DNA from: Synechococcus sp. CC9605
Lineage (GTDB): Bacteria > Cyanobacteriota > Cyanobacteriia > PCC-6307 > Cyanobiaceae
Reading direction: 5' to 3'
DNA length: 64,000 bases
Assembly (NCBI RefSeq): GCF_000012625.1
Contig: NC_007516.1
Location: 124,001 to 188,000 of the forward strand
Part shown: in pieces, positions 11,673-33,739 of the stretch
How the letters are laid out: each line of letters opens with the position of its first letter
How positions within the stretch are numbered: the first letter of the stretch is position 1
Notes under the pieces: generated by a model
What the model was told of the DNA's origin: nothing
Databases searched by the model: none
What the model saw: the letters and a program-made list of their open reading frames with translations, nothing else
Position numbers and translations under genes: made by a program

Positions 11673-12551
<879 letters not shown>

Positions 12552-12633: not shown

Positions 12634-12692
12634 TATCCAGAGCGACATTCCGCAGACCGGATGGCGCCGATTGAACCCGTGACCACCGCTTA
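12634..12692 (+). pseudogene. uvrD 3' scar
   Basis: About 27 bp matching uvrD at 61234-61260 (ATCCAG, then GCGACATTCCGCAGACCGGA) are joined directly to the last ~33 bp of uvrD (TGGCGCCGATTGAACCCG ... TAA). The 256 bp between them, and all of uvrD upstream, are missing. This scar shows that the block was copied out of the uvrD-GT-kdsB locus. Confidence 0.85.
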
Positions 12693-12718
12693 ATCTCCTT
12701 AGCAGCCATTGACGGCCT

Positions 12719-13429
12719 GTGTCGAGCATCAGCCAGCCGATTCCCATTTTCATCGGCTACGACCCGAGAGAACGGGCAGCGACCAACGTTCTGATCGACA
12801 GCTTGTATCAAAACAGCAGCGTTCCTCTGGCGATCACGCCGCTGGTGACACCTCAGCTGGAGGCTCAAGGACTGTTCCGGCGCGAGCGGGACCCTAAGCA
12901 GAGCACGGCGTTTTCCTTCACCCGTTTTCTGGTGCCTTACTTGATGGGGTACGAGGGCTGGGCCCTGTTCATGGATTGCGACATGCTTTGCCGGGCTGAC
13001 ATCAAGGCACTCTGGGATCAGCGCGATGACGCCTATGGAGCCATGTGCGTGCAGCACGAGCATGTGCCTGGGGAGACCGTGAAATTTCTCGGCGAGGTGC
13101 AGAGCCCCTACCCCAAGAAGAACTGGAGTTCACTGATGCTGCTCAATTGCAGCCGCTGCACCAAGCTCACGCCCGATTACGTGAACACAGCCACGGGGTT
13201 GGAGCTTCACCGCTTCCACTGGCTGGAGGGTGATCATGAGATCGGCGCCATCCAGGGGGGCTGGAATCATCTGGTGGATGTGCAGGCTCCACCGGAGTCC
13301 GAGCAGGCTGCTCCAATGCTGCACTGGACCCTGGGTGGCCCCTGGTTCCGCGAACAGCGCACCATGGGTGGCCCTCTGGCTGCTGAATGGTTCAGCGCCC
13401 GCGACGATGCAATGAAACTCTGGGATTGA
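12719..13429 (+). CDS. GT8-like glycosyltransferase, island copy
   Basis: A 236-aa protein with a GTG start (MSSISQPIPIFIGYDPRERA). The N-terminal IGYDPRE motif, SFTRFLVPYL and the metal-binding LFMDCDMLCRAD (DxD type) suggest a GT-A fold related to family 8, using a nucleotide sugar; donor and acceptor are unknown. The protein is identical to that at 61574-62284. The stop overlaps the kdsB start (TGATG), so the two are co-translated. Linkage to kdsB suggests a role in KDO or outer-surface glycan chemistry. Confidence 0.8.
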   Translation: MSSISQPIPIFIGYDPRERAATNVLIDSLYQNSSVPLAITPLVTPQLEAQGLFRRERDPKQSTAFSFTRFLVPYLMGYEGWALFMDCDMLCRADIKALWDQRDDAYGAMCVQHEHVPGETVKFLGEVQSPYPKKNWSSLMLLNCSRCTKLTPDYVNTATGLELHRFHWLEGDHEIGAIQGGWNHLVDVQAPPESEQAAPMLHWTLGGPWFREQRTMGGPLAAEWFSARDDAMKLWD

Positions 13430-14148
13430 TGGCGATTCGTAAGTGTGTGGTGGCCGTTCCGGCCCGGCTTCAGTCATCTCGACTCCCCAACAAGGTGCTG
13501 GCCGACATCGGCGGTAAGCCGATGATTCAGCGCGTGCTGGAACGCTGCAGTGAGGCTCAGGGTGTTGAAGCGGTGGTGCTGTGCACCGACAGCACCGAAC
13601 TTCAGACCCTGGCTGAGGGTTGGGGGTTCCCAGTGTTGATGACGTCGGAATCCTGCAACTCCGGCAGTGAGCGCATCGCATCGGTGGCTCACCCTCTGAT
13701 GGCCCTGGGCTGGGGCGATGCGGATCCTGTGGCTGAAGAGACCGCAGTGATCAACGTTCAGGGCGATCAACCGTTCATCGAACCTGCTGTGATCGATGCC
13801 ATGGCCGAGGAATTTCGGAGTCAGGATCCTGTGCCGGCGGTCGTGACCCCCGTCTACGGGCTGAAGCCCGAATCGGTCCACAATCCCAATGTGGTGAAGA
13901 CCCTGCTGGCCCATGACGGCCGTGCGCTCTATTTCTCACGGTCCGCCATCCCCCACGTGCGGGATATAGCTGAGGCGGATTGGCATCAGCACACCACCTA
14001 CTGGGGGCATGTGGGCATGTACGGCTTCCGGGGAGATGTATTGGCTGCATGGGATCAGCTGCCGGCCTCACCATTGCCACCTTCCGGGTCGAGGGCACCT
14101 CGTTGTCGGTGGACACCGCCGAACAGCTGGAGCAGGCCCGGGCGATGA
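13429..14148 (+). pseudogene. kdsB with a 55-bp frameshifting deletion (island copy)
   Basis: The first ~215 codons are identical to the intact kdsB at 62284. At 14070 a 55-bp segment is missing. In the intact copy the segment is bounded by a 12-bp direct repeat, GCCGGCCTCACC, at 62916 and 62971, and one repeat plus the segment between has been lost. The frame shifts and ends after an unrelated tail (SPLPPSGSRAPRCRW...), giving 239 aa rather than 259. The N-terminal nucleotide-binding motif (PARLQSSRLPNKVL) and VQGDQPFIEP remain, but the C-terminal part of the CMP-KDO synthetase fold is gone. Confidence 0.87.
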
Positions 14149-14530
14149 TTTGAAGACCTTAGTCGAGACAAACATAAGGGTAGCCGTGAGATATGCCTCT
14201 TACACACCAACGATTCTCTTGAGTGGTGGCTGCAGTAGGTCTTGAAACCCATGTAGCTTCATGCTCCGCGATTGACGATCAATCCAGAAGCATCCATTCA
14301 ACAAATATCAACAGCTAGATGGTTAACGGGCAACTAACCCTTTGCTTCAGCATTTGAGCAGGTCCAATTTTTTGATATTGACTAATGCGCTCAATAAAAG
14401 GACTATTAAAATTTAAAAGTCAAGTTCTAAGAAATGCATCTCTCTAGAGGGGGCAAGATGCGATGTGTTTATCCCGAAAGGTAATTCTATTCATGTATAA
14501 TATTTGCTGGCAAAATCAAATGCTAAGTCT
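14149..14530. other. Gap between the duplicated block and the AT-rich glycan genes
   Basis: 382 bp with no supported gene. The shift from GC-rich to AT-rich sequence begins here, so it marks an internal joint of the island. No inverted repeats or transposase relics were recognised. Confidence 0.55.
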
Positions 14531-16147
14531 TTAATTAATTGCATCCGAGGCAAGATTATAGCCGTAGTATTCATTTATAATATGCAAGAAATTTCCAGAC
14601 TCAATCTCGCTCAAGGTAAATTGGCAATACGAGAGGTTATTAATCCAAAGTGAGCGATCCGGATATATAGGATTTTCGATCATAGATAAATCTGTCAAGC
14701 CAATTGGTGCAGCAGCACTAGTTTTAGAGACAAACACAGGTGTTCCTAGACATACTGCTTCGATTGCTACGTTTGACGAATGAGTTACGAGAGCATGTGC
14801 TTCTTGTAATTGTTCTGCAAGTGGGATAGGCTTTTCATCCAGTTTAGGTTTTTTGCGTACAACTATTTTTCTGTCAGTGTACAACTTAATTTCATTAATA
14901 GTTTTATCCAACCAACCATGAACTGAATGTGCTTCAGAAAAATAATCAGTTGGCGGACAAACTATGATTTTTTCCCCTCGCGTGTTCCAAGGATCTAACG
15001 AAACATTTAATTGTTTAGATCTACTGCTTGGACATAGTCTAAGCATATTGCATTCAAAAGAATTAATACTGATTCTGTAAGAATTGCCATGACCTCTATT
15101 AAAATAAGCATGATCAATATAAACAAAGTGTTGATCACGGTTTATTGCATCATCTATAATTTTCTTTGAATTTCTGAGTACACCCCAGCAGACAGGAACA
15201 CCCTCAGTAAAACCTTTATAATCCTCAGCATAGGAATGTCTACAACCAGCTCCAGAAATAACTGCAGACATAACCATATTTCCACCACCACCACGATTCA
15301 AATATGCATAAAGCATTTCACTAGAAATATCTTTTTCACTTACGCTGTAGCGAACATTCTTGCAATTAAATGGAAGCTCTGACCAATTAGAATTGGATTT
15401 ATTTTTATATACTATCGCGACTTGTTCGCTACGTCGAACCATGTACGGGGGAACTATTGATGGCAAATATAGTTTATTTGAATCTGAAATAGCAAGAGTT
15501 TCAAACCTTATTGATCCAGGAGCTTGAAATCTAACAAAGGTCAAGTTGTCATTTCCATGACTGACTTCCGTTTGAATATCTTTCAGGGCTTTGTCGCAAG
15601 CACTAGAAATTTTAATGTAGTCAATATCTACTCTCTTTGAAATTCTTAGTAGTAAACTAAGAATACTTATATGTAATATTCCGCTTCCATCTTTGTAAGT
15701 GGGTAAATCATATAAAAACCCTTGACAAAAACTATGAACGAAGTCTTCGGATAATGCTACATAAGAGGAGCATAAGTCACAACTTATGCCTTCATCTATC
15801 TGCAACTGGTTAATTTTATACTTTAAATCATTATCGCTCTTTTTGTGTGAATGCTCATAACTACGTACTCTTAAAGCACACCCCGAATAATGTTGTTCGA
15901 GAATATCACAGATTATCTTTAGGAAGGGATCGTGAGTAGTTAATGCAAGAATATTTATTTCGCCAGTGCGCTTGAATACACTCTTATAAATCAGATCTAT
16001 TAAAAATGTGCTAATTAACTTATTAATAATTTTTTGCTGTTCAGATGTCATTATTGCAGACACCAATCTCATTTGTGATTCTAAATATTCTTTTTTGAAA
16101 ATTGCTTTTTTGGTAGAAATAAGATTCAGCGTATTTTTGCTATTCAT
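14531..16147 (-). CDS. Putative surface-glycan biosynthesis protein (GT-B-like C-terminus)
   Basis: A 538-aa AT-rich gene with an ATG overlapping the stop of the upstream transferase (ATGA). I do not recognise the N-terminal ~280 residues. The C-terminal half contains GVPVCWGVLRNSKKIIDDAI, FVYIDHAYFNRGHGNSYR, IIVCPPTDYF and LVTHSSNVAIEAVCLGTPVF then VSKTSAA, which resembles the donor-site region of capsule or KDO-type GT-B transferases (THSS-x5-A-LG-PV). Similar proteins occur, as I recall, in marine cyanobacteria and their phages. No membrane segment or signal peptide is seen. Role inferred from sequence and neighbours only. Confidence 0.6.
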   Translation of the reverse strand: MNSKNTLNLISTKKAIFKKEYLESQMRLVSAIMTSEQQKIINKLISTFLIDLIYKSVFKRTGEINILALTTHDPFLKIICDILEQHYSGCALRVRSYEHSHKKSDNDLKYKINQLQIDEGISCDLCSSYVALSEDFVHSFCQGFLYDLPTYKDGSGILHISILSLLLRISKRVDIDYIKISSACDKALKDIQTEVSHGNDNLTFVRFQAPGSIRFETLAISDSNKLYLPSIVPPYMVRRSEQVAIVYKNKSNSNWSELPFNCKNVRYSVSEKDISSEMLYAYLNRGGGGNMVMSAVISGAGCRHSYAEDYKGFTEGVPVCWGVLRNSKKIIDDAINRDQHFVYIDHAYFNRGHGNSYRISINSFECNMLRLCPSSRSKQLNVSLDPWNTRGEKIIVCPPTDYFSEAHSVHGWLDKTINEIKLYTDRKIVVRKKPKLDEKPIPLAEQLQEAHALVTHSSNVAIEAVCLGTPVFVSKTSAAAPIGLTDLSMIENPIYPDRSLWINNLSYCQFTLSEIESGNFLHIINEYYGYNLASDAIN

Positions 16148-18690
16148 ATTCCAACAACTCTGTAAATGTTTTCGGAGAAATTATCCCAACTATACTCACT
16201 GACGGTGGAACTAACATCAATATCGTCCATAATGTATGCCTTTTCAATTAATTCAGAAACTGTGTTTGCCGTTGATGATGTCTCAAACAAAAACCCATTA
16301 CTACCATGACTAATAATATCTTTTGCAAACCCCGTCTCGCTGACAACTGGAAAGCAGTTACAAGCCATCGCTTCCATAAGGGGTATAGGACCACCTTCTA
16401 ATTTTGATGTGCTCAAGAATATCTTAAATTTTTTGTAATAATCAGGATAGTCTTCATATTTAGCAGTCACATATTGAACATTGCCAAGACCGACTAATGC
16501 TTCATATCTGGCATATGATTCCCAGTTTTTACCAAGTAAAATAAACTTTTTATCTCTCATTTTAGATACTAAGTTAAAAAGTAATTCGGGATTTTTCCGT
16601 TCATAGAATGATGAGCATACTCCTATGGTGTTTGATAGCTTTCGGTCGTGAGCAGTAAATCTCGCTGAATCAAAACCACCGAGTACAACACATCCTCTAA
16701 TAGGATTAAGACCTCTGGAAATCCATAAGTCATAGTTTTTAGAACAGGCGAAAACTATCTTGTTTACTTTTGAGAAAATATCTAGAAATTGATCAATGCT
16801 TTTTTTATCTTCATCTCTTGGATGTGTGTACCAACAATTGATGTTACTACCTTGTGATAAGTCAACTAATCTCAATTTTACAAACTTCTTAAGTAATGCC
16901 TGATGCATAAAAAAGTAATTTTTAGCCTTAGGAAGGTGTTTAGGAACTTTATCACAATAAAAAATTGACCATGAGTTTTGAGATCTCGAACCTATCTCCT
17001 TAGCTATACCATCTAAAATCCAATTCTTGGCCTCAATTCCACATACAAATAAAAGATCAGTGTTACTTGATGAGATGTCTAATGGTTGATATCTGCCGGG
17101 AATATTCTCAGGGACTCTGCTAAGATTATTGTGTTTAGTTGATTCTGATCTGGTATAATATTTGATCAGAAATTCTTTTAGCGATGATTGCTTGATTATA
17201 GAAACAGTCGATGAGTTAGTTGCAATACTACTAAATCGGTTAATGGCGTTAGTCCAATCAAAAAGTTTTTTTGAAATATTAGCATTTAGTTCATCACTTA
17301 TGACAAGGCTGACGTTGTTTTTAAGAAAATTACGCGCTTTCTCGATATCATCAAGTTTTAAAAGGTGGGGAATTATCTGATTTGAGGAGTAGTGATTTAT
17401 ATGGTTTTCCGTTAGAGGCGTAAAATGTATGTAATTCACTCTATACGAAGGGATAAAGCTATTGAGCAATGAAATAATGATTTTAATATTGCCTACTGAA
17501 AGATTATCGCATATTATTGATACTACATCTTTTTCATTTGGTATAGTTGGATAATGTTCTTGAGAAGCCAAAGACGATAACCAAATATTTTGAAGGACTA
17601 AATTATAAACCTTAGTAATTTCAATTATTGTATATCTATTCAAAATAGTCTTATTTTCATTCAAGGCTTTAGTACGTTCTTTCTTTGAATTCTTAGAAAA
17701 TAAATATTTCTGAATTGCGCTCTTCAAGCTCCTATCGACTGACAACTCAAACTCACTATTATTTGGATGTTTAATTACAGCTACAGGACAATTATTTATT
17801 AATGAAAATAAAACCCTGTTGTTTGATTTTCCCATACAGCGCTCGTCATCACCTGTTGTTATTAAAGACATTGATGCTAAAGATAGTTGTTTGAATATTT
17901 CAGGAAGTGTCCATTCAACTAAGTTATATCTAATGCCAAAGGATTTTAAAGTTCTAAGATCAGCATTTGAATTTGTGCAAATAACTAAATCAAAGTTCTG
18001 CTTATTTTGCAGTGTTTTAATGGCTGGAAGATGTGGAATTAAGCTAGATATGCCCATATTTGATGTTGGAGAATATGCGTTTCCAAACCACAAAACACGC
18101 TTTATTTGAGTTTTCCCTTCAGTATGCCCAAGCGAAGATTTAATGTTTTCAGCAATACTAATAGCAGTTTTATCCTTCAATGTTTCTGACTTATACTCGC
18201 ACAGGCTTAATGAATCTTGCATACTCTCAGCTATATCCGGTATTATGTAAACTTTGTTTCGCCAAATAGACAACTTTGAATTCTCTGCATGTTTAATTAA
18301 GTGATCACGCATCTTTGCGGTTGGGACAAATATTGCATCAGTGAGATCAATCAAAGAGTTTAAAATCCAACTATTGATTCCGAAGTCATTATTCTTGTAG
18401 TGAATATCACATACGGTGTCGGTAATATCAATAATAACTTTGCAATTAAGGGCTTTACCTTTAACCAATAAATCAATAATATTAAGACCTGGCATTTTTA
18501 TTATGAATAAAAATGATTCTGGTTCAATTTGATTTTTTGCTTTTTTTATGTCCGTAAGGAAATAATTTTCGTAACCGAAATTCTTCTCCAATCCTCTCGC
18601 AATATGGAGACACCTTAGCCTGACGCTAGCCTGATTGAGGTTGAGGGAAGGAACAACCCAGAAAATTTTTCTTGGTGCCGAATAACTCAT
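16144..18690 (-). CDS. Large two-module glycosyltransferase (GT4-type C-terminus)
   Basis: An 848-aa AT-rich gene with an ATG at 18690; a TTG three bases upstream is the alternative. Residues 1-370 form a first GT-B-like module (IFWVVPSLNLNQASVRLRCL; RVLWFGNAYSPTSN; CMGKSNNRVLFSLINNCPVA). After a linker a second module (about 540-848) has the GT4 donor-binding features FILLGKNWESYARY, STSKLEGGPIPLMEAMACNC and FPVVSETGFAKDII. Two catalytic units in one chain suggest consecutive sugar additions, or one catalytic and one recognition unit. It overlaps the next gene by 4 bp. Sugar specificity is not readable from the sequence. Confidence 0.72.
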   Translation of the reverse strand: MSYSAPRKIFWVVPSLNLNQASVRLRCLHIARGLEKNFGYENYFLTDIKKAKNQIEPESFLFIIKMPGLNIIDLLVKGKALNCKVIIDITDTVCDIHYKNNDFGINSWILNSLIDLTDAIFVPTAKMRDHLIKHAENSKLSIWRNKVYIIPDIAESMQDSLSLCEYKSETLKDKTAISIAENIKSSLGHTEGKTQIKRVLWFGNAYSPTSNMGISSLIPHLPAIKTLQNKQNFDLVICTNSNADLRTLKSFGIRYNLVEWTLPEIFKQLSLASMSLITTGDDERCMGKSNNRVLFSLINNCPVAVIKHPNNSEFELSVDRSLKSAIQKYLFSKNSKKERTKALNENKTILNRYTIIEITKVYNLVLQNIWLSSLASQEHYPTIPNEKDVVSIICDNLSVGNIKIIISLLNSFIPSYRVNYIHFTPLTENHINHYSSNQIIPHLLKLDDIEKARNFLKNNVSLVISDELNANISKKLFDWTNAINRFSSIATNSSTVSIIKQSSLKEFLIKYYTRSESTKHNNLSRVPENIPGRYQPLDISSSNTDLLFVCGIEAKNWILDGIAKEIGSRSQNSWSIFYCDKVPKHLPKAKNYFFMHQALLKKFVKLRLVDLSQGSNINCWYTHPRDEDKKSIDQFLDIFSKVNKIVFACSKNYDLWISRGLNPIRGCVVLGGFDSARFTAHDRKLSNTIGVCSSFYERKNPELLFNLVSKMRDKKFILLGKNWESYARYEALVGLGNVQYVTAKYEDYPDYYKKFKIFLSTSKLEGGPIPLMEAMACNCFPVVSETGFAKDIISHGSNGFLFETSSTANTVSELIEKAYIMDDIDVSSTVSEYSWDNFSENIYRVVGI

Positions 18691-18964
18691 CAAAAGATTA
18701 TAAAAAATAGTTGATAAAGATACTTACATGATTTTCGCCTCAAAAGGATATTGGCATGCTCATAAATCTCTTTTTATAATATTGTACATTATAGCACACG
18801 CAATATGCAAAGTTTTAGTGACGACTTGTTCATCGGCCCATAAAGTCTGTTTGTTCTAATCTTTCATTGCTTTTAATATTGTTTGAATAAAAAAGGATTC
18901 TGAGTGATTGTCACTCCTATGCCTACATTTGGTAGATTAGCATGCGGTGAGATGTAATTATTCA
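18691..18964. other. AT-rich gap
   Basis: 274 bp between the epimerase stop and the large transferase start, both on the minus strand. It separates two transcription blocks and probably holds a promoter for the 848-aa transferase gene. No convincing gene or terminator hairpin was found. Confidence 0.4.
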
Positions 18965-20008
18965 TTAAAGACTCCAATCAACAAGATTTCTCAATCCCAC
19001 CTCAAGAGGTATTTTCGGCTCCCAGCTGTTTAAACTTTGAAATGCTTTTGTTATATCAGCTTGGGCAAATCTAATATCACCATCTCTGAATTTACCGGTA
19101 ATTTTGTATTCTGGGTGGAATCCTTTTTCCTCAGCTAGCCGACACAATATATTCACGATATCAATGATTGAGGTGGAAATACCTGAGCCTATGTTAATAA
19201 TTTCGCCAGATGATGCATTTATGGCAGCAACCAATGATCTAACTACGTCATCGATATAAATAAAGTCACGAAAAATTTCACCATCTTCATATATTTCCAG
19301 GGTTTTTCCATCCTTAATCTGAGAACAAAATATAGATAGTACACCGGTGTAGGGGTTGTTTAACGACTGCCCAGGGCCGTAAACATTCTGAAAGCGTAGA
19401 ATATTCCAATCCATATTGGAACACAGGTTTTTAAGTAGAAGCTCTTGCATGAGTTTTGTGCTTGCATAAACAGAATCTGGTTTAGGAAAGAAATTTTCCG
19501 GTGTTGCTTTAGCTTGCAATAAAGTTCCACACTCGCCATAAACTTTAAAGTCACCTCTTTTCATACATTCTGACGACCTAGACTTTGCTTTCTTGGGTTC
19601 ACCAAGAGAATTGATATAAAGTCCCTCACCATAGATAGCCCGGCTGCCTGAAAGAATAATCTTTCCAGAAGTATGACCACTAGCTCTTAGAGCCTCAAAA
19701 AGATTTGTAGTACCACGTACATTTACATCAACGTATCTAGATGGTTCGTCAAATGACTGTCCTGTTCCTGTCTCTGCTGCCAAATGATAAACAATATCAA
19801 ATTTATGCTGTTGAAAAATTTCTATCAAGGCATCTAAATCTCGAATATCACATTCGTGAATTGGAAAGTCGAAATTCTTCTGAGGCTTTTCTCCGTGGAC
19901 TTGCGGCTGGAAGTTGTCAAGTCCGACAACTTCGTGATTTTGCGCAATCAACGCTTTTGCAAGGCGCAATCCAATGAAGCCTGCTGCCCCTGTGATTATA
20001 ATTTGCAT
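18965..20008 (-). CDS. NAD-dependent epimerase/dehydratase (extended SDR)
   Basis: A 347-aa nucleotide-sugar-modifying enzyme. It starts at an ATG with the Rossmann motif ITGAAGFIGLRLAKAL (GxxGxxG). It has the acidic DNF after strand 2, VYHLAAETG, the active-site YASTK, and substrate-side features RFQNVYGPGQ and DFIYIDDVVRSLVAAI. It belongs with the dTDP/UDP/GDP-sugar 4-epimerases and 4,6-dehydratases; the exact reaction cannot be told. It follows a four-gene minus-strand operon after 145 bp and probably supplies a modified sugar to those transferases. Confidence 0.82.
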   Translation of the reverse strand: MQIIITGAAGFIGLRLAKALIAQNHEVVGLDNFQPQVHGEKPQKNFDFPIHECDIRDLDALIEIFQQHKFDIVYHLAAETGTGQSFDEPSRYVDVNVRGTTNLFEALRASGHTSGKIILSGSRAIYGEGLYINSLGEPKKAKSRSSECMKRGDFKVYGECGTLLQAKATPENFFPKPDSVYASTKLMQELLLKNLCSNMDWNILRFQNVYGPGQSLNNPYTGVLSIFCSQIKDGKTLEIYEDGEIFRDFIYIDDVVRSLVAAINASSGEIINIGSGISTSIIDIVNILCRLAEEKGFHPEYKITGKFRDGDIRFAQADITKAFQSLNSWEPKIPLEVGLRNLVDWSL

Positions 20009-20153
20009 ATCAATGTGCTTGATTGATTTTTGTATTATAGATCAAATGAGCGCCTCCATCAGAATATTAAATAGTTCATGTTTGACCTAGTTTAAAAAAT
20101 ACAATTGCGACTGATGAATGTTAAGATCTTTGTTAATGAATTTCTTCTGGAGG

Positions 20154-21191
20154 TTAGACTGTGTTTAATTTTTTGTAAAACTCAACGAGGTGAAATGGAT
20201 TAGAATACTGTTTACAATAATCTAACTGTGCTTGATACAATTTTGATCTTAAAGACCTCGAGTAAAGAACTCGTGATATATTTTCCATCCATGATTCTTC
20301 TTTTATATTAGAATGAATAGGCGATAAACATGGAATGTCTTCATATGGACCAAACTTGGACGCGATTATTGGTATTTTTGCTTGTATATGCTCCAGAAGT
20401 TTGGTATTTGCTTTGCAGTAGTTGAAATTATTTTCGATTAATGGAGCTAAACCAACCCACCATCCACGCGATTTCAATACTGTCTTAAATTCTTGATAGT
20501 TTGATACTCTAGTAATAGCTGTACATCTATCTGGGAATTTTTTAACTAATGTTTTTGGTGGCTGTAAACCAAATGATTCGAATTTAAGATTTCTGTGGTT
20601 ATTCATTAATTTTTCGATCTTGGGTACAATTATATCAAGGTCTTTGATATGAGATTTTGTACCCATATATCCAATTGTTGGATATGGACTCTTAATATAA
20701 TCATTATCGTTTAATTGGGGAGCTTCAAAGACTTTGTAAAAAGGACACGTATAGATTGAAATATTGGGAAGTATCTTTTGAATTTCCGAGCATAATCTTG
20801 ATGTTGACACAATCAGCCCTTTGACTGACTTTGTCACATCGTGGAGCGCTTTCATTCGATCTTTATTATGATAGTGCTCCCATTTGCCCTTACCAATAGA
20901 CTTTGGCACATCATATAAATAATCATCAAGATGCAAAAATACATTTTTATTTAGTCGCTTAGCTTCGTCTAATATACCCTTAAATGAATTAAAATCATAC
21001 CAGCGAGACAATATCAAGTAATTACAATTAAATATTTCAGCATAGGCCTCTATGCGACTTAACGTCTTCAGTTCTGACCATTGATGCAAAGAAAATTTAA
21101 TTTGTTCAGATTCTTTAATTGAAGATTGGTCGAAAAGAAAAGATATGACTTGAGTAGCTTCAACTGTTTCGCATAAGATTGAAATATTCAC
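20154..21191 (-). CDS. Glycosyltransferase-like protein (GT-B)
   Basis: 345 aa from a GTG start that overlaps the preceding stop (GTGA). The C-terminal half carries a GT-B pattern: TIGYMGTKSHIKDL, a loop with YCKANTKLLEHIQAKIPIIA, then SKFGPYEDIP. The KxxEH/KLLEH...P-IAS text corresponds to the nucleotide-sugar-binding helix of GT4 enzymes. It is the last gene of the four-gene AT-rich operon starting at 25841. Acceptor unknown. Confidence 0.65.
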   Translation of the reverse strand: MNISILCETVEATQVISFLFDQSSIKESEQIKFSLHQWSELKTLSRIEAYAEIFNCNYLILSRWYDFNSFKGILDEAKRLNKNVFLHLDDYLYDVPKSIGKGKWEHYHNKDRMKALHDVTKSVKGLIVSTSRLCSEIQKILPNISIYTCPFYKVFEAPQLNDNDYIKSPYPTIGYMGTKSHIKDLDIIVPKIEKLMNNHRNLKFESFGLQPPKTLVKKFPDRCTAITRVSNYQEFKTVLKSRGWWVGLAPLIENNFNYCKANTKLLEHIQAKIPIIASKFGPYEDIPCLSPIHSNIKEESWMENISRVLYSRSLRSKLYQAQLDYCKQYSNPFHLVEFYKKLNTV

Positions 21192-22327
21192 TCTATCACC
21201 TCATATTTTTTTGTCGCATCTCTTGTATCAGGCGAAAATCTAATCAAATAGTCTAGAAATGATGTGTAGTCCTCAGCTATTTGATCGTTATCTCTCAGAA
21301 TATATTTTAATTGTTGACTAAATTGTGATGGGGCGGTGTAAATTGGTGAATTTGAAAAAGCAATCATTTCCTCTGTGGATTGTGCGATTGGGAGAAATGA
21401 TACTTGATTAATATCAATACTTTGACAAGGATCTTGCCATACTAATGCCGGTACATTGTTGCTTAACATATCGAACAATACTGAAGAAGGTGCTGAAATT
21501 CCATATGAATAATCTGACCATCTGATAGCATAAGAAGGTCTATTTTCCAGAATAACATTCTCCGGCAATTTTATTTTATTTTTTATGGTATATTGTCCTC
21601 CCGGGTGAGGCCTTAAGGCTACTTTCTTTCCTTTTGCTTTTAAATATTCTGCTAGCCCGAAAAATTGTTCCATGAATTGGTTTACATTGTGTTTTTTTCC
21701 GTATCTGATTGAATGAAGATTTTCACACACAATGCCAATAGGTTCGCTCATATTTTTAGTTATTTTAGGTTGAAGGTTGCGTTTATTTGTTTTTTTAATC
21801 CAAGCTGTTGGACCTAGGTTAATATACTTGCTTCTATGCAATGGACGCAGGTTGCGTTGGAGTCTTGCAGGAACCCATCCACACAAATATTCAGCAGCAA
21901 AGCCGACAGAATTTCCCCATTTTTGTTGGTGGTTCTTATTCATTAAGAAACCGACGCACTCAAAGCCATGCTGAAGAGTGACTGTAGATATTTTTGCTGG
22001 TGCCAACTTGAATATTTCGTGTGTCTCTTCATGAGCAGGTAAGTCACTTTCACTTGCAGATATTAAAAATCCACCCTCAAACTGATTTAGTAGTTTCCAT
22101 GTTTCATATTGACTTTCAATGTTAAAAAGTATGCAATTAATTTCAGATTTCATTGAATGAAGTTCTTTCATCCATGCCGCCTGGCTGTCTCTTTTTGTAA
22201 ATCCTTGCGTTATTAGAATTGTTGGCTTTAAATTTAGGTTATCCGCAGCTATATAAATTAGTGACCTAAGTATATTTACATCTTGTAATAGATTTACTAT
22301 GTATCCTGCAAAATAAGATCCACTCAT
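21188..22327 (-). CDS. Glycerophosphotransferase- or capsule-type GT-B protein
   Basis: A 379-aa protein overlapping both neighbours by 4 bp. Visible features are STVTLQHGFECVGF in the middle, then VALRPHPGG and SYGISAPSSVLFDMLSNNVP then ALVWQD. The order TLQHG, RPHPGG and S-SSVLFD-L-NNVPAL is that seen in CDP-glycerol glycerophosphotransferases and related capsule transferases. That family relation is an inference from motif order alone. The protein appears soluble. It probably adds a sugar or polyol-phosphate to a cell-surface polymer. Confidence 0.6.
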   Translation of the reverse strand: MSGSYFAGYIVNLLQDVNILRSLIYIAADNLNLKPTILITQGFTKRDSQAAWMKELHSMKSEINCILFNIESQYETWKLLNQFEGGFLISASESDLPAHEETHEIFKLAPAKISTVTLQHGFECVGFLMNKNHQQKWGNSVGFAAEYLCGWVPARLQRNLRPLHRSKYINLGPTAWIKKTNKRNLQPKITKNMSEPIGIVCENLHSIRYGKKHNVNQFMEQFFGLAEYLKAKGKKVALRPHPGGQYTIKNKIKLPENVILENRPSYAIRWSDYSYGISAPSSVLFDMLSNNVPALVWQDPCQSIDINQVSFLPIAQSTEEMIAFSNSPIYTAPSQFSQQLKYILRDNDQIAEDYTSFLDYLIRFSPDTRDATKKYEVIE

Positions 22328-23859
22328 GGTCTACCCCCAGAGACTTGATACCTAGTCATTAAATCAGTCAAATACGTATATTTACAATTGAATGCCTCTT
22401 GAAGAAGAGAGCTTAAAGACTTGCTTATGAATAAGAAGAGAATCCTTTGCCTTATATGATTTCTAGGACTTACCAATCTTTCTTCCCTATATCTATATTT
22501 TAATATCCTATCAACATCTTTGGCGATATTAGGCGCTAAATTCTTTATTTTTTTGATATTCAATTGCAATACAGTGATATTGCTGAGATGTACTTTCTCT
22601 AAGTGCTCTTTCCATTTTGTTTGAATGTGTGCATGGCAATTATCGGTAAATTGAATGTAATATTCGTTGTTATATTGTTCAATTCCAAAGTTGCAAAATC
22701 CTGACCTTGAAAGCCTCATAGCATTAGCTATGGGAAATTGATCGACTGGAAAATCTGCCGACAACTTTTGTTTATCTAAATTAAAATGTATCGCTGTTAT
22801 TTGTACTTGTTCAACAGTGTGCTTTACCGTTAATGTTTTTTTGAAGAATCTAACTGTGTTATCCGCTTGAGCTTCGGGGTTATAATTTGCATTACATTTG
22901 TCTATAAACCCTGGAAGTGAATCATTGTTAAGCTTTAAAGTATCGTGCTTGTAATGATGAATTAACTCACCTGTGGAGCGGTAGATCAGATCTGTAAAAT
23001 CACTGTATAAGTTATAGCCATTAGACAACACTTGGCAGCCATAAGACAATGCCGTAATGCATCTATTAGATGACTTTGCAATTGAAAATTGTTGATGACT
23101 CACAGGTATTATTGTAACATGAGCTTCGCGCAATAATTTAGCTTCTAGCTGAGGTGACCATAATTCTACATTAGCTTCTATTGGCAGATTTGATATGAAG
23201 GATAAATTTTCTTGAGTGAGCGCACGTTCATTCGTTAAAATAGTAAACGTGATCGAACCAAAACTTTTTCTAAATTGGAATAATGAATTTGAGTAATTGG
23301 CCAAATTTTTTATTCCAACTTCGAAATATGGATTATCCCCAATACCGAACCAAAGAATATTTAAATGGCCGGATGCTTTCCACGAATTAACCTTTTGACT
23401 TATCAGCTCTTCTGTTTCTTCTGATAAAATATTAGATTCACAAGTATCTTTAACTAAATGGATGCTTTTTTTTGGTACGAACTTTGCAGCTATTTCTTTC
23501 ATTTTTTCTGTCGAGCATATTACAAAGTCGCACATTATTGATGCGATTTTTATCCAATTATATTTATCATGAAGTAAATTTAATGTCTCATCGCTAAAGT
23601 AGTCGTCAAACAAATCAATGCCAACACCGATCCCACAAGATTTGCAAAAAGAGATTATACGGAGAGAATCTAAGCCATATACTTTTACTATTATAGCTAT
23701 ATTTACTTCTTTAAGTAATTTAACCGAGACTTTATTAATTGGCTTATAAACTAGCTCCACATTTTTAGCTTTTATAAATGGCTCTAGGCGTTTATATCTA
23801 ATTCTTGCACCGCCCGAGTTCATCCATTCTTTGTTCGGATAGATAATTAAAGCTTTCAT
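22324..23859 (-). CDS. Glycosyltransferase-like protein with a GT-B module and a unique C-terminal domain
   Basis: 511 aa, ATG at 23859 in an ATGA overlap with the upstream gene. Residues 1-330 resemble the first module of the 848-aa protein at 16144: LIIYPNKEWMNSGGARIRYK, LNILWFGIGDNPYFEVGIKN and SIAKSSNRCITALSYGCQVL. The last ~170 residues (VEQVQITAIHFNLDKQKLSA ... YYIQFTDNCHAHIQ) are not recognised. The shared KSSNR/KSNNR motif with the 848-aa protein supports a related transferase module. Function in surface glycan assembly is inferred from the operon. Confidence 0.6.
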   Translation of the reverse strand: MKALIIYPNKEWMNSGGARIRYKRLEPFIKAKNVELVYKPINKVSVKLLKEVNIAIIVKVYGLDSLRIISFCKSCGIGVGIDLFDDYFSDETLNLLHDKYNWIKIASIMCDFVICSTEKMKEIAAKFVPKKSIHLVKDTCESNILSEETEELISQKVNSWKASGHLNILWFGIGDNPYFEVGIKNLANYSNSLFQFRKSFGSITFTILTNERALTQENLSFISNLPIEANVELWSPQLEAKLLREAHVTIIPVSHQQFSIAKSSNRCITALSYGCQVLSNGYNLYSDFTDLIYRSTGELIHHYKHDTLKLNNDSLPGFIDKCNANYNPEAQADNTVRFFKKTLTVKHTVEQVQITAIHFNLDKQKLSADFPVDQFPIANAMRLSRSGFCNFGIEQYNNEYYIQFTDNCHAHIQTKWKEHLEKVHLSNITVLQLNIKKIKNLAPNIAKDVDRILKYRYREERLVSPRNHIRQRILFLFISKSLSSLLQEAFNCKYTYLTDLMTRYQVSGGRP

Positions 23860-25841
23860 GGCGTAAGCTCTTTGATATTAGTTACCTGTTTTTCAATTCT
23901 TATGAAGTTACTTATAATATCCTCTGTTAAAGATCTATCTATTGTGATTGTTGAATTGATTGTAGGATAGTTAATGTATTGTACACTTAAACGAGTAGAG
24001 CATACATTATTTTTGCCAGCTAAAACTGCTTTACATGAAAGTTGAACCAAGAACTGATTTAGATCCGATACTACCTCGTTTCTTCTAATCTCTGCCAAAA
24101 TTGTTTCGCTATTGTACAAGCAAAAATCATAGTGATTTGAAAGCACATTGATTTCAGATGAATACAGAAATGATGTAAGATTTTTGGCTACAAGTGCTAA
24201 GCGGCCTGATTGTGAAAAGCTATTAAATGTTGGATACATACCACAACTTATATTCTCATATAATTCACCTTTTTTCGAGCTACTCAGATAACTTAATATG
24301 CACCCACTCGAAAATGCATTATATTTATTAAGGTTACTTTGAAGTATTGAGATGACATTCGAATCTTGGAGTACAATATTCTCATTTATGAATAAAATAT
24401 GCGACTTATTGTCTATGATCGAGGCAAGTTGCTTTACATCCGTAATAATATCAAAATCTATGATAATTTGCCATTCTTTTAATATTTTTACCATTCTTTT
24501 TCTCAGCTTATTTATGTTATTGCTGTTAGATTTGAAGACAATTTTTTTTGTTCGAACCTGGCTCTGATGATGTATAGAGAGAATCATTTCTTCTGTTATA
24601 TTTTCTGGTTTATCTGTATTTACTAAAATGATTAATGCTTTATTTGCCGGATTTATGTCTTCTTCCTTCAAAATATCGTATGGCAGAACAGGGTGAGCAC
24701 TATATGGTACTTTATTTTCACCTGGACAGATGCATATTGGCCCCTCTATGTCTTTGTACTGTGGATTTTCTGAAGCTTTTTTGCTTATTAAATATGGATA
24801 TGAATCATTGGTTTCCTTCAGGCTCTCTGTTTGCCTCTTTGGGAATGAGGCTTGAAGTTTATAGAGAGGATTGCTATCGTATTCATTTGTAATAAGAATG
24901 TCAACTGAATCAACATCCATGTCGGAATCAATAACTTTAACAATACCGTTCACAATTGTTGATATCGTTGGATATGCTTTTTGTGGTATGGCTAGTGTTG
25001 TGCCCTGGCAGTTTGGGTCATATTCTTTTAGTATTTTTATTCCATGTACCTCCTTAATCCATTTGCGGAAATCCTCGTTTGCATAGCCTATTCCTATGTC
25101 TTGATGCCCAGTTTTCATAAGCAAATAATCTATTTTGCATTTGTTGGGTGTATCCCTTAATTTGTTTGTATACTTATTTAGCGACTCTATTATGCCAAAT
25201 TCGTTATATGCGTCGACCAATTCAGAATAATGGTACCCTCCTGGAATCAACGAAGGAAAATAAATTATCTCTAAATCATTAATCTCATTGTGATCTGAAT
25301 TTGCATCAATAATAAATATTGGCATAAATTCATTGTCCAAGGAAACTACTACTGTTTCAAGTCCCTGAAATTCTCCTTCGGATTGGCTCTTCAATTGCTT
25401 TAGCTTCAAATCAGGTGTTAGCAATGCTTGGTAAAAATAATATCCACTTGTTTTAAGCGATTTTCCTGCAGGTTCAAGTTTTACCTTTAGGTTTTTGTTT
25501 TTTGTAATTGATGTGCTGATTAGAGTGTTTCTTGTTATTAACTTCTCTATTTGCTTTTTATTTTCTTTTCCGTCCTTTTCATCTGCAAACCCAGGGCAGC
25601 ATTTTTTCAAAATTTCCAGGTTTTCATTGCTTAGGCTGTCTAATATTGTTTTAATTTCAAAATTCTGATTTTCTCTTTGAATTAATTTTGCTAGGTAATA
25701 ATCCCTTCTTTTTCTTATGTGCAGCGAGTTGGTTGGGCTTATGTTGTTTTTTTCTTCTTTTAATATTTTTTCCGCTAAGCTGCAATATTCTTTGTATCTT
25801 TTATCTCTTTCCAGCTCATGAAGTTCTTTTAGAAATTGCAT
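23856..25841 (-). CDS. Large protein with a possible GT2-like C-terminal domain
   Basis: 661 aa, ATG at 25841, first gene of the operon 25841-20154. I do not recognise the N-terminal ~370 residues, which include helical text (LHELERDKRYKEYCSLAEKI) and an aspartate-rich stretch (DVDSVDILITNEYDSNP). From about residue 395 the text KALIILVNTDKPENITEEMI, then LSIHHQSQVRTKKIVFK, resembles the start of a GT-A family 2 domain, and HILFINENIVLQDSNV could be its metal-binding strand with Asp replaced by Asn and Glu (INEN). The canonical DxD is thus not evident. Function unknown; an inactive or divergent transferase is possible. Confidence 0.5.
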   Translation of the reverse strand: MQFLKELHELERDKRYKEYCSLAEKILKEEKNNISPTNSLHIRKRRDYYLAKLIQRENQNFEIKTILDSLSNENLEILKKCCPGFADEKDGKENKKQIEKLITRNTLISTSITKNKNLKVKLEPAGKSLKTSGYYFYQALLTPDLKLKQLKSQSEGEFQGLETVVVSLDNEFMPIFIIDANSDHNEINDLEIIYFPSLIPGGYHYSELVDAYNEFGIIESLNKYTNKLRDTPNKCKIDYLLMKTGHQDIGIGYANEDFRKWIKEVHGIKILKEYDPNCQGTTLAIPQKAYPTISTIVNGIVKVIDSDMDVDSVDILITNEYDSNPLYKLQASFPKRQTESLKETNDSYPYLISKKASENPQYKDIEGPICICPGENKVPYSAHPVLPYDILKEEDINPANKALIILVNTDKPENITEEMILSIHHQSQVRTKKIVFKSNSNNINKLRKRMVKILKEWQIIIDFDIITDVKQLASIIDNKSHILFINENIVLQDSNVISILQSNLNKYNAFSSGCILSYLSSSKKGELYENISCGMYPTFNSFSQSGRLALVAKNLTSFLYSSEINVLSNHYDFCLYNSETILAEIRRNEVVSDLNQFLVQLSCKAVLAGKNNVCSTRLSVQYINYPTINSTITIDRSLTEDIISNFIRIEKQVTNIKELTP

Positions 25842-26179: not shown

Positions 26180-26336
26180 GTTGACTCTATGGTCCTCCTG
26201 CAGACTTTACTGCACCATTTCTGGTGTGGGTTCGTCGCCGACGTCCAGTCACGGTGATCGCCAAAGGTGCCGGCGTGATTTGCAGGGGGTCTTGCATTCA
26301 TACACCGGACAAGGTTGTGAGTTGTTGAAACTGCAT
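26180..26336 (-). pseudogene. rfbC ghost (dTDP-4-dehydrorhamnose 3,5-epimerase N-terminus)
   Basis: From an ATG at 26336 on the minus strand the text reads MQFQQLTTLSGV-stop-MQDPLQITPAP, then in another frame TFGDHRDWTSATNPHQK. It aligns with the usual RfbC start (MQ-QLTT-SG ... GPLLITP-VFGD-RG-F-ESWN). An internal stop and a frameshift disable it, and the rest of the gene is missing. Conserved text is short, so this is less certain than the rfbA ghost. Confidence 0.6.
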
Positions 26337-26384
26337 GGCTTACTTACAGGCTGGTGCGCAGAGCTGTGTGATCCCTCACTTTCT

Positions 26385-26826
26385 CCTCGAGCATTTGGAG
26401 TAGATATCAGCCGTAGTCACTCTTCTTTAACGCTCGCGCCATTTGGTCGAGTTGTTCGTCGATGATCCAGTTGTGACGCTAGATCACATCATCTGGCCAG
26501 TCCACTTTCAGGCTCTGGCGGTGTCTAGAGTGCGGATGTAGGGCCTGTATTGTTGAGGGTGTCGCAGGTGCCGGTGTCAAGCCAGGCCCTACCACGGCCC
26601 ATCAGTTCCACCTGCAGTAACCCTTCAATGAGTTACTTCTTATTGAGATCGCTGATCTCTATTTCCTCATGAGCAGAGGCTCGACCTGTCGAGGCCGCCC
26701 CACAACGTTCTTGTTGCAGAAGTACAAGTCGGTGACGACGTAGCGGCTACTTGTCTGTTGTGGTTTTCACCAGTTTCAGCACGCGGCCATTGGCATCGAA
26801 CTCGGCCACGCGATAGCGCTTGTGGC
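26385..26826 (-). pseudogene. rfbA ghost (glucose-1-phosphate thymidylyltransferase C-terminal half)
   Basis: The minus strand read from 26826 gives RYRVAEFDANGRVLKLV, then across frameshifts EIEISDLNKK and LQVELMGRGRAWLDTGTCDT then LNN, and finally a DDEQL-like stretch. These match the RfbA core (YGVAEFD-GRV, GELEI-D-N--YL, GRG-AWLDTGT--SL, the SGYG end). Several stops and frameshifts are present and the N-terminal catalytic GGxGTRL region is absent. rfbA followed by rfbC is the usual dTDP-rhamnose order. No gene on the plus strand here is credible. Confidence 0.75.
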
Positions 26827-26858
26827 TACTGAAGGGTTAGTAATGATCGTCTCGCCTT

Positions 26859-27058
26859 AGGCGGCTGCTGGCCTTGGTGGTGATGCTCCTGGGTTTGGCA
26901 TCACTGCCATCCCCACTGGAATCCCGACCGTGTCGGGGGTGCGCCATCACCAGCAGCGGCCGTCTGAGCTGGTCTGCAGCAGCTGGGGGCGCCAGGGTCA
27001 TCGCAGGGATTCCCTTCACTGCGATTTCTGCGGCGCGTCGCTGCCTTCCAGGGCCTGA
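26859..27058 (+). pseudogene. 3' fragment of the channel gene (right border copy)
   Basis: About 200 bp match the end of the channel gene at 5652-5852, from the S6 helix to the zinc-ribbon tail, with about 10% mismatches. A base is missing near 26897 (GGGTTTGGCATC against GGGTTTCGGCATC), so the frame is broken. The 5' three quarters of the gene are absent. The fragment ends convergently inside rnc, as in the ancestral arrangement. Confidence 0.85.
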
Positions 27059-27741
27059 AGGGCGGCTGTTGCCGCGTTCTGCTCGGCCTCCTTGCGGGAT
27101 CTGCCTTTGGCTTCCGCCAGATTCCTGCCTTGGATGCTCACCTGGCAGCGGAAGCGTTCGGGGTCGCCGTGCTGGCGGCTGCATTCCTCGGTGGCGTAGC
27201 GGGGCAGGCCGAGGCCCTGGCCCTGGCTCCACTCCTGCAGTGTTGTTTTACCGCCGAACTGATGGGGAGTCGCCAGCACCGCTTGGGTGGTGGCAGACCA
27301 GTGGGGGGTCAGCCAGCGGTGAATCGCCTTGAGGTTGCCTAGGGCGGTGTACAACGCACCGATCAGAGCTTCGGTGGCATCGGCCCGCAGCCTGGATCGT
27401 GCGGAACGATCCCCCTGGGCGTGCCGCCCCAGCAGCAGGTGCTCCTCGATGCCAAGAGCTTCACCCACGTCAGCCAGCCAGCGGTCGCTTACCAGCTGGG
27501 CTCTAAGGTTGGAGCAGGCACCCACCGTGAGATCGGCGTGGTGGCGATCAATGAATTCGGTGGCGGCAAGCCGCAGCACCGCATCACCAAGGAACTCGAG
27601 CCGTTCCAGGTTCCGGTCTCGGCCGCTCGAGACGTGGGTCATTGCCTGATCCACCAGAATCAGGAGCTCCGGTTCGATCGGGATCTCAGCATCGAGGCGC
27701 TGGATCAGGTCGGTGAGTTCTGCGGCGCGGGATGGATCCAC
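27016..27741 (-). CDS. rnc: Ribonuclease III
   Basis: 241 aa from a GTG at 27741 (VDPSRAAELTDLIQRLDAEI). The frame remains open to 27810, but those codons are the 3' end of the RNase P RNA, so the GTG is chosen. The RNase III signature RNLERLEFLGDAVLRL is present near residue 40, and the dsRNA-binding domain (KTTLQEWSQGQGLGLPRYAT ... RSRKEAEQNAATAALQAL) is C-terminal. The enzyme cleaves double-stranded RNA in rRNA and mRNA processing. It lies directly downstream of rnpB on the same strand. Confidence 0.93.
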   Translation of the reverse strand: MDPSRAAELTDLIQRLDAEIPIEPELLILVDQAMTHVSSGRDRNLERLEFLGDAVLRLAATEFIDRHHADLTVGACSNLRAQLVSDRWLADVGEALGIEEHLLLGRHAQGDRSARSRLRADATEALIGALYTALGNLKAIHRWLTPHWSATTQAVLATPHQFGGKTTLQEWSQGQGLGLPRYATEECSRQHGDPERFRCQVSIQGRNLAEAKGRSRKEAEQNAATAALQALEGSDAPQKSQ

Positions 27742-27770
27742 AGGGAGTCCTTGGCAACGCGGAAAGGTTG

Positions 27771-28162
27771 GTGAAAGCAGGACATAAGCCGGGTTCTGTT
27801 CACGCCTCACAGAGTTTGGTCTGCAGAGGGTGGGTGGTTATCTATCTGGGACCGCCGTTACCGACGGCCTCAAGCGGCGCGTTCAAGCGGAACGGGGCCA
27901 ATGGCCAGCCGTCGTTCCTTGGCCTTGCTCCCAGCCGGGGTTTACCGAGCCAGCACCTCTCGATGCTGCTGGTGCGCTCTTACCGCACCTTTGCACCCTT
28001 GCCTGTGCCGGCGAACCGGCCATCGGCGGTGTGTTTCTGTGGCACTCTCCTCACGGTCACCCGCACTGGGCGTTACCCAGCAAGCCTGGCCATCAGGGAG
28101 CCCGGACTTTCCTCAGCCGACACTCAAAGAGATCGGCCGCAACCACCTCGCCTGCTTTCAGA
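27771..28162 (-). ncRNA. rnpB: RNase P RNA
   Basis: On the minus strand the sequence contains the conserved RNase P elements GAGGAAAGTCCGGGCTCCCT near the 5' side, GAGGAGAGTGCCACAGAAAC, and AGAACCCGGCTTATG near the 3' end. The ends can pair as helix P1: GAAAGCAGG at about 28159-28151 with CCTGCTTTC at 27781-27773. Length is about 390 nt, normal for cyanobacterial type A. This ribozyme matures tRNA 5' ends. End positions are set from P1 and may be off by several bases. It overlaps no real coding gene. Confidence 0.93.
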
Positions 28163-28197
28163 TCTCATCATGCCTCGTGGGCATAATTCAGAGGTCT

Positions 28198-28271
<74 letters not shown>

Positions 28272-28364
28272 TGAGAATTACTGAAGAAGTAGTGAGCGCT
28301 ACATCTGGTGGGGTGGGCAGATCGTTTACCACCGCTAGGGTTGTTGCAACCGGGTGTGGGTGCC

Positions 28365-28691
28365 ATGACCCAGCTTCACGATCTCCGTCTGCGGCTGTTG
28401 GTGCAGCAGGAAAGTGAGCGGATTGCGGAATCTCAGCCCACCGACATAGACCTGTCGGTGGTTCAGGCCCGCTGTCTGTGTTGGCTTGCTCTCCTGGCGG
28501 AAGCCCATGAGGACCAAGCCAGTGACGCCGAACGCCGCGGCGACACCGAACAAGCTATGGGTTGGTTTGCCGACTCGATGCGTCTGCGGGATGTGATTGG
28601 TGTGGTGACGTCCATTGAGATCCCCCTGCCCGACACGGCTGCTGAGGGTGGATCTCAGCCCGAGGAGGATCGCGGGCCTCAGGCTGCTTGA
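28365..28691 (+). CDS. Small conserved cyanobacterial protein, function unknown
   Basis: 108 aa from an ATG at 28365 (MTQLHDLRLRLLVQQESERI). Mainly helical, with an acidic, disordered tail (AAEGGSQPEEDRGPQAA). No membrane segment, Cys cluster or catalytic motif is seen. It precedes another small protein on the same strand by 37 bp; the two may form an operon ending at the terminator near 29245. Codon and base use match the core genome. Confidence 0.6.
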   Translation: MTQLHDLRLRLLVQQESERIAESQPTDIDLSVVQARCLCWLALLAEAHEDQASDAERRGDTEQAMGWFADSMRLRDVIGVVTSIEIPLPDTAAEGGSQPEEDRGPQAA

Positions 28692-28728
28692 TCAGTGGCA
28701 TAGTGGGGGATGACCGCGAGGGACTGCA

Positions 28729-29193: not shown

Positions 29194-29212
29194 AGGCTTA
29201 GGCCCCTGCATC

Positions 29213-29245
29213 AGAGCCCTGGACTAAGAATCCAGGGCTTTTTTG
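29213..29245 (+). terminator. Rho-independent terminator
   Basis: Stem AGCCCTGGA / TCCAGGGCT (29215-29223 with 29231-29239) with loop CTAAGAA, followed by six Ts. It ends the small-protein operon and lies just before the convergent glgP stop at 29255; the reverse orientation has no good U-tract. Confidence 0.88.
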
Positions 29246-29254
29246 TACTTGGTT

Positions 29255-33366: not shown

Positions 33367-33368
33367 AA

Positions 33369-33719: not shown

Positions 33720-33739
33720 CGCGTCCCTCGCAGCCGGCT

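Follow-up and report, generated by a model that had tools for sequence, protein, structure and literature searches.

What might a set of seven AT-rich glycan genes make in a picocyanobacterial genome when its proteins lie mostly outside curated families, and how was the set acquired? We addressed this question for a 64,000-nucleotide stretch of Synechococcus sp. CC9605 (contig NC_007516.1, positions 124,001 to 188,000 of the forward strand), hereafter the window, in which the seven genes occupy positions 14531-25841. Judged by conserved gene order, the set is a rare but recurrent operon common to distant bacteria, and it is reasonably probable that the island containing it is a horizontally acquired glycosyltransferase module for a capsule that is exported by an ATP-binding cassette (ABC) transporter and associated with 3-deoxy-D-manno-octulosonate (Kdo), the export machinery being encoded elsewhere. 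This reading is drawn from the AT-rich composition, an insertion at rnc bounded by repeats, and the 661-511-379(-345) gene order, conserved in other bacteria and accompanied by a gene resembling glycosyltransferase family 8 (GT8) and often by an epimerase gene.

The seven open reading frames (ORFs), designated by protein length, lie on the minus strand and are all uninterrupted (538, 849, 347, 345, 379, 511 and 661 aa by rising coordinate). In order of transcription, they are:

23856-25841, minus strand: 661 aa, divergent first operon protein with a C-terminal GT-A-like region inferred by eye (hhalign to plasmid profile)
22324-23859, minus strand: 511 aa, GT-B-like N-terminal part plus C-terminal extension (31-33% to homologues on three plasmids)
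21188-22327, minus strand: 379 aa, predicted glycosyltransferase (motif, by eye; 35-39% to three plasmid homologues, 95-96% length)
20154-21191, minus strand: 345 aa, GT-B-type glycosyltransferase (PHROG 7162 glycosyltransferase, E 8.1e-19)
18965-20008, minus strand: 347 aa, NAD-dependent sugar-nucleotide epimerase/dehydratase (Pfam Epimerase, E 6.7e-54)
16144-18693, minus strand: 849 aa, GT-B-like N-terminal part plus C-terminal GT4-type domain, Glycos_transf_1 (Pfam, sequence comparison)
14531-16147, minus strand: 538 aa, no assignment for the N-terminal half, residues ~270-538 being a phage-shared GT-B domain of predicted KpsC/WbbB-type fold, hereafter 538C (sequence searches, model)

The GC content of the block is 0.340, against 0.623 (1-5600) and 0.629 (27016-39000) in the flanks, and GC at third codon positions (GC3) is 0.265-0.313 in the seven genes, compared with 0.728 in rnc (27016-27810) and 0.749 in a glmS-like gene (816-2705). 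The names rnc, rimM, glmS, manC, gmd, rfbA and channel used here are our assumptions, assigned by eye. The intergenic gaps in order of transcription are -4, -4, -4, 145, 271 and -4, and the four 4-bp overlaps (ATGA, GTGA, ATGA and ATGA) couple 661/511/379/345 and 849/538. A DNA comparison with the whole genome found the block a single time, and the one further match was that of the rfbA-like remnant described below. The curated Pfam cut-off was met only by the C-terminal part of 849 and by the 347-aa epimerase; 538, 345, 379, 511 and 661, five of the seven proteins, did not reach any. Among the NCBIfam matches listed for the seven proteins (for the epimerase, the best 25 of 67 rows), none exceeded its cut-off, and neither these nor the listed Pfam matches included a polymerase, a flippase or an exporter. 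The original prediction, which had described seven glycan genes differing sharply in composition from both flanks, linked by overlaps into groups of four and two and including no polymerase, flippase or exporter, was borne out on all these points, and its count of at least three proteins with large unrecognised regions was exceeded. The proteins did not all fall into well-described families with a known common product, and the general outline of a glycan locus of foreign composition, with proteins mostly outside curated families, is supported by Pfam, NCBIfam and GC content.

The set is rare and patchy in its distribution. Searches of the family, with the source genome counted in, detected 661 in 1 of 121 genomes and, among 151 genomes, 379 in 1, 538 in 2 and 511 in 2 (one of them weak); a Prochlorococcus single-cell genome is a member of this same family. 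A profile of 379 matched 4 of 386 genomes across the phylum, including the source genome, and a plasmid homologue of 379, searched against the class of Methylobacterium, matched only the genome previously found (1 of 385). Among 72,556 plasmid records, the matches of 511 and 379 fell in three shared records, as neighbouring genes arranged as in the window, namely Parasedimentitalea marina pW43A, Pararhizobium sp. A13 pPspA13b, and Novosphingobium sp. P6W pP6W2, all from alphaproteobacteria. The 661-511-379 order is found on all three, with a 661-like protein assigned by its upstream position; a 345-like gene follows in two, a GT8-like gene is present in three, and an epimerase gene in two. On pW43A, the order is a KpsF/GutQ-type isomerase, a 782-aa protein, 511-like, 379-like and 345-like genes, with the GT8-like and epimerase genes on the opposite strand. 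On pPspA13b, GT8-like and epimerase genes are followed by those for an 830-aa protein, a 511-like protein, and a fused 379-like/345-like protein (one 738-aa ORF, L127:11974-14190), and this fusion supports a joint function of the two. The first part of the pP6W2 cluster contains genes for a KpsF/GutQ isomerase, kdsB, and more glycosyltransferase-type proteins, with a GT8-like gene on the opposite strand; a 1,359-aa protein, 511-like and 379-like proteins and kdsA then follow, and after kdsA the opposite strand encodes a GSCFA protein, an ABC ATPase and an ABC-2 permease. A polysaccharide export protein is also encoded there, and neither 345 nor the epimerase had a match in this cluster. The plasmid annotations give the 511- and 379-like genes as hypothetical proteins or list no gene at their positions.

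A diverged version was found in two large-genome cyanobacteria (G1149 and G947), which carry 511/849N-like, 379-like, GT8-like, epimerase (44-49%) and 345-like genes, an MBOAT protein gene (Pfam-checked in G1149) and, further along in both, an ABC-2 permease gene. Their 379 matches are distant (profile E 1e-16 to 1e-17), and the order is a diverged 379-GT8-epimerase-345. G1009 contains 379-, 345-, GT8- and 849C-like genes. G260, from the family of Methylobacterium tarhaniae, carries an 849C-538C pair in the same order (44% and 50%). M. tarhaniae itself has a 379-like gene cut off by the contig end (31% over 154 aa) and, downstream of it, a 538C gene with an N-terminus that resembles a methyltransferase by eye; with this 538C homologue as the query, 4 of the 298 genomes in the family of M. 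tarhaniae matched, its own among them. In G307, 538C has a distant match (29%) close to a GT8-like gene (46%), and G323 gave weak 538C matches, none of the window genes matching its locus (L102) by tblastn at E 1e-2. Because the gene order is conserved on three alphaproteobacterial plasmids and recurs in diverged form in two cyanobacteria, we regard the set as a recurrent operon, and the picture of an isolated set did not hold. No description of the operon was found among the matches listed in the literature on Synechococcus islands, capsules and Kdo and on Kdo transferases (titles and abstract starts).

The operon proteins differ in how well they are conserved. The best conserved is 379, whose single-sequence structure model reached a pLDDT (predicted local distance difference test) of only 34.5. 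The 661-aa protein was linked to a profile of the three upstream plasmid proteins by hhalign (probability 96.4, E 1.1e-9, 413 columns); singly, tblastn linked it to the Pararhizobium (L127) protein only (E 2.8e-4), and direct searches yielded no relatives in phages (E up to 0.1), viral contigs or plasmids. No relatives of 511 or 379 were found in phage records, and their multiple-alignment profiles matched no viral contig and, up to E 1, no PDB chain. For 345, no relative was found in viral contigs, three phage records matched weakly, and its profile gave nothing convincing against PDB. Homologues of the 347-aa epimerase in L126, L127, L149 and L150 share 38-49% identity, and the N-terminal part of 849 is distantly related to the 511-aa protein.

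The manner of acquisition is suggested by the surroundings of the block, in which the following features were identified:

5653-5994, no strand: left direct-repeat copy, made up of 3' ends from two convergent genes, the channel-type gene and rnc (94.7% to 26860-27200)
11673-12533, minus strand: kdsA-like, 3-deoxy-8-phosphooctulonate synthase (NCBIfam NF009109, 518 bits, cut-off 457)
12719-13429, plus strand: GT8-like glycosyltransferase (weak Pfam GT8 match below cut-off; phrog_28018)
13387-14148, plus strand: kdsB-like CMP-Kdo synthetase copy, 253 aa, C-terminus altered (30.7% to the annotated L128 manno-octulosonate cytidylyltransferase)
26245-26840, minus strand: rfbA-like remnant, broken, at the right edge (78% DNA identity to C1:1851184-1851785, several frames)
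26860-27200, no strand: right direct-repeat copy (self-comparison of the window)

Seven ORFs do occupy 14531-25841 as predicted, but the true unit is larger: relative to other genomes, an insertion of ~21 kb (about 6.0-26.9 kb of the window) separates a channel-type gene (5025-5852) from an intact rnc. In seven of the eight genus mates with the rnc region compared, the channel-type gene directly adjoins rnc, representing the empty site; the eighth (L121) gave no match to the channel-type gene. The insertion is bracketed by the 342-bp direct repeat, and the adjacent segment 5995-6063 matches 27645-27713, inside rnc, at 80%. One genus mate (L119) contains an AT-rich glycan block between 2,708-bp direct repeats (95.7%; L119:858-3565 and 14881-17588) that carry manC and a gmd-like gene, a layout like that of the window's island. 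No repeat of this type was found in the other seven rnc regions, and the repeat-flanked layout is thus represented by two instances among the genus genomes examined. Such islands can, we infer, enter at rnc when imported DNA bearing copies of the local core genes recombines there, as a circle might through a single crossover, and the layout hints at the way in which they are exchanged.

Part of the insertion is duplicated within the window. The second kdsA copy (56492-57386) shares 84% DNA identity with the insertion's copy, the GT8-like gene recurs at 61574-62284 with 100% protein identity, and a 273-aa kdsB-like copy lies at 62242-63063. The DNA duplicate spanning the GT8-like gene and kdsB (12662-14153 versus 61517-63063) shows two mismatches, the insertion copy being 55 bp shorter. 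Since these copies are near-identical while the adjoining kdsA copies differ by 16%, a recent gene conversion or a second duplication is suggested. Near this second kdsA and a sulfotransferase gene, two proteins (55640-56488 and 58241-59134) had no Pfam match at E 0.001. Within the insertion, a tetratricopeptide repeat-type gene (6275-7229) contains near-identical internal repeats of 339 bp (96-98%), and a coiled-coil-type gene (8244-8883) contains internal repeats spaced 147 bp apart (85-94%).

The link to a Kdo-associated, ABC-exported capsule comes from the homologous clusters and from the source genome. On the plasmids, the isomerase, kdsB and kdsA of the Novosphingobium cluster and the isomerase of Parasedimentitalea are annotated Kdo genes, and the window's insertion carries its own kdsA, above the NCBIfam cut-off, and kdsB. 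By Pfam, ABC2_membrane permeases are present in L128, L149 and L150, and Poly_export in L128. KpsC/KpsS-type PF05159 matches lie at C1:2026645-2029723 of the source genome, ~1.9 Mb from the island. The KpsC-like protein matches solved KpsC with a best E of 1.1e-68, and a Wza-like protein is encoded nearby (Pfam), the 80 kb around these genes having been read as ORFs only, except for this Pfam-scanned protein. Of the 20 genus genomes, 16 have PF05159 matches, including 9 of the 10 near-complete ones, against 2 of 14 control genomes.

We therefore propose the following scheme; the nature of the product, the part played by Kdo, the transfer to remote export genes and the recognition by phages and grazers are what we infer in it. 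The island enzymes would build a lipid-borne polysaccharide in the cytoplasm, with Kdo possibly present in the chain or linker; the 347-aa epimerase would supply one sugar donor, and 849 and 538 would add or modify further residues, with 538C being a putative KpsC-fold glycosyltransferase from a family that phages also carry. The chain would exit via a capsule exporter of the ABC-2 type, together with KpsC/KpsS/Wza-type partners whose genes lie elsewhere, and acquisition of the island would alter the cell surface and thereby, probably, recognition by phages and grazers. Several observations weigh against this scheme. Neither 849 nor 538 had a match in the three plasmid clusters; no kdsA or kdsB match was found at E 1e-3 in L126, L127 or L148-L150; one near-complete genus mate (G450) lacks PF05159; and no KpsM/KpsT pair is known in the source genome, where no search aimed at one was made. 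Moreover, the insertion's kdsA and GT8-like copies are GC-rich (0.60) and duplicate genes at 56-63 kb, and their arrival may therefore have been separate from that of the AT-rich block. Genes at the island edges are decayed (the rfbA-like remnant, whose match at C1:1851184-1851785 forms the 3' portion of another, intact ORF of the genome, and an AT-rich sulfotransferase gene at 9070-10712 that is apparently broken into two ORFs of 381 and 123 aa).

The original prediction had suggested that the product is handed to the exporter at 47147, and an unlikely alternative to the capsule scheme builds on that gene: the set would make a lipid-linked oligosaccharide that is flipped by the transporter at 47138-48985 for a glycoprotein or a Wzy-type polymer. 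The transporter lies amid more glycosyltransferase genes and a sulfotransferase gene (45971-55615), and its DNA (47001-49000) has a GC content of 46-48%, between the 34% of the island and the 58-62% of its surroundings, so that it too may have been acquired. However, it is an ABC_membrane plus ABC_tran half-transporter, not of the ABC-2 type, and is 21 kb away from the set, whereas the homologous clusters L128, L149 and L150 adjoin ABC-2 permeases instead; in addition, no ligase or Wzy was found among the seven proteins by Pfam or NCBIfam. Given these clusters and the KpsC/KpsS-like proteins elsewhere in the genome, the hand-over to 47138 is not supported. An O-antigen or lipopolysaccharide (LPS) side chain exported by Wzm/Wzt, without a Kdo linker, is less probable still. 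In its favour, the LPS of Synechococcus WH8102 and CC9311 is described as free of Kdo in PMC4515613, where some other cyanobacteria are said to have it; Wzm/Wzt export of O-antigen in cyanobacteria is discussed in PMC4390846; and L149 and L150 gave no kdsA or kdsB match. This alternative is opposed by Kdo-pathway genes, which the window and two of the three plasmid clusters carry, and by the KpsC/KpsS-like proteins of the source genome. A decaying import without a product in this strain, to which the split sulfotransferase gene, the rfbA-like remnant and the altered end of the kdsB copy would point, is very improbable in view of the seven uninterrupted reading frames and the 4-bp couplings.

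Within the capsule scheme, the fold of 538C deserves separate consideration. The model of this domain has a pLDDT of 92.1 and a predicted TM-score (pTM) of 0.89, and the first 21 rows of a Foldseek search of PDB were the retaining Kdo transferases WbbB, KpsC and KrkA (best E 1.2e-6), with modest TM-scores (at most 0.55) and an identity of ~10%. VIA Z values were 11.3-12.2 for KpsC (best superposition Z 12.2, 220 residues, 4.3 A), 10.1-10.5 for WbbB, and 8.4-8.6 for KrkA, the last being tied with unrelated structures (Asp1, 8.4; an epimerase, 8.3). Viral models similar to 538C include a 'Capsule polysaccharide biosynthesis protein' of Tetraselmis virus 1 (E 5.1e-13). Two 538C profiles had no PDB match, so the assignment is one by fold. 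In local mode, hhalign gave probabilities of 27 for KpsC (E 6.7e-4), 29 for KpsS (E 6e-4), and 8.7 for the second KpsC domain, and in global mode at most 3.5 for KpsC/KpsS. According to PMC10148158 and PMC12887879, retaining Kdo transferases conserve a QXXXD motif (nucleophile Asp and carboxylate-binding Gln) and an HP motif (CMP). Among 56 members of the 538C family (53 viral-locus sequences out of 115 after filtering, together with the window, L012 and L013), Q was found in 2 and D in none at the hhalign-aligned QXXXD positions, the weak alignment to KpsC leaving exact motif positions uncertain, and a QXXXD string occurs somewhere in the wider loop in 15. HP was found in none at the aligned place, where [RKH]xKP occurs in 21. 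Invariant residues of the family are D76, Y79, R89, W143 and E245 (model numbering). We conclude from the model that 538C has a predicted KpsC/WbbB-type modified GT-B fold with a differing active site, and we assign no donor; membership in GT99, GT107 or GT140 is not claimed, given the QXXXD and HP results.

The 538C family is rich in phage members. Matches to 538C by tblastn occur in 16 phage records out of 50,697 and in 257 viral stretches that passed confirmation, 80 of which were analysed as loci; a genome scan with its own, narrower peptide patterns found 2 loci, a count that is not comparable with that of the viral scan. One plasmid record matched 538, beside phage genes. A relative of the GT8-like gene at 12719-13429 was found in 18 of the 50,697 phage records, and 15 of the 16 records with 538C also carry it, with matches at most 150 bp apart (lists compared by hand); Caulobacter phages account for 14 of the 15, with duplicate records among them, and independent cases of the pairing are accordingly few. 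In the viral loci (near-identical contigs kept), a GT8-like gene was present in 56 of 80, within 400 bp in 47 of them, and at least two copies of the domain in 60 of 80. Taken together, 86 phage/viral loci contained one kdsB match and four epimerase matches but no match to 345, 379, 511, 661 or 849 at E 1e-5. Four 538C copies (from two phage records and two viral contigs) had no PHROG match at E 0.001, and the GT8-like phage gene corresponds to phrog_28018, the listed function of which is unknown. Pfam DUF6716 ('putative glycosyltransferase') matched 19 of the 56 family members (best E 1.8e-5), and Capsule_synth matched one (E 0.0075). No paper on DUF6716 was found, and no description of the phage family was found among the matches listed in the literature on phage Kdo transferases (titles and abstract starts).

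A tree of 538C unites the sequences of the window, M. tarhaniae, G260 and Prochlorococcus in one clade (99/93), separate from those of phages, and the fifth bacterial row, G307, lies elsewhere on a long branch. A phage origin of 538C is not claimed, since with four of the five bacterial rows in one clade and G307 elsewhere the direction of transfer cannot be told from the tree. It is conceivable, although on balance doubtful, that 538C and its phage relatives constitute an unrecognised Kdo-transferase-fold family that works without the QXXXD nucleophile, that this domain and the GT8-like enzyme form a two-gene surface-remodelling unit carried by phages to alter host capsules, and that a bacterial capsule island has incorporated this chemistry as well. 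If the phage pair does act on capsules, surface remodelling during infection would be directly testable. More generally, orphan picocyanobacterial glycan genes are hereby linked to a rare operon spanning phyla, five unassigned proteins gain a common context, and a phage-rich family of putative glycosyltransferases with a recognisable fold is highlighted.

Among known systems, the pelagimyophage glycan cassettes (PMC7029224), for which GT8 is named as the most represented glycosyltransferase family, resemble the phage loci described here in having a GT8-like gene, which in our loci stands beside one or more 538C homologues; the phage and viral loci of this study differ in the absence of matches to the five other island glycan proteins. 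The retaining beta-Kdo transferases GT99 (WbbB), GT107 (KpsC) and GT140 (KrkA) share the fold of the 538C model and differ from it in the low identity and TM-scores and in the two motifs at the aligned positions. The operon of pW43A, pPspA13b and pP6W2 shares with the island the order of 661-, 511- and 379-like genes, with the 345-like, GT8-like and epimerase genes in two, three and two plasmids, respectively, and differs in having no match to 849 or 538. From ABC transporter-dependent capsule loci (group 2/3-type: kpsMTED, kpsC, kpsS, kpsF, kpsU), the island differs in that its seven proteins include no KpsM/KpsT, that five of them reach no curated Pfam cut-off, and that its operon lies at rnc between direct repeats. 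It resembles such loci in that the glycosyltransferase operon of its relatives is accompanied by Kdo synthesis genes and ABC-2 permeases and in that KpsC/KpsS-like proteins are encoded in its own genome.

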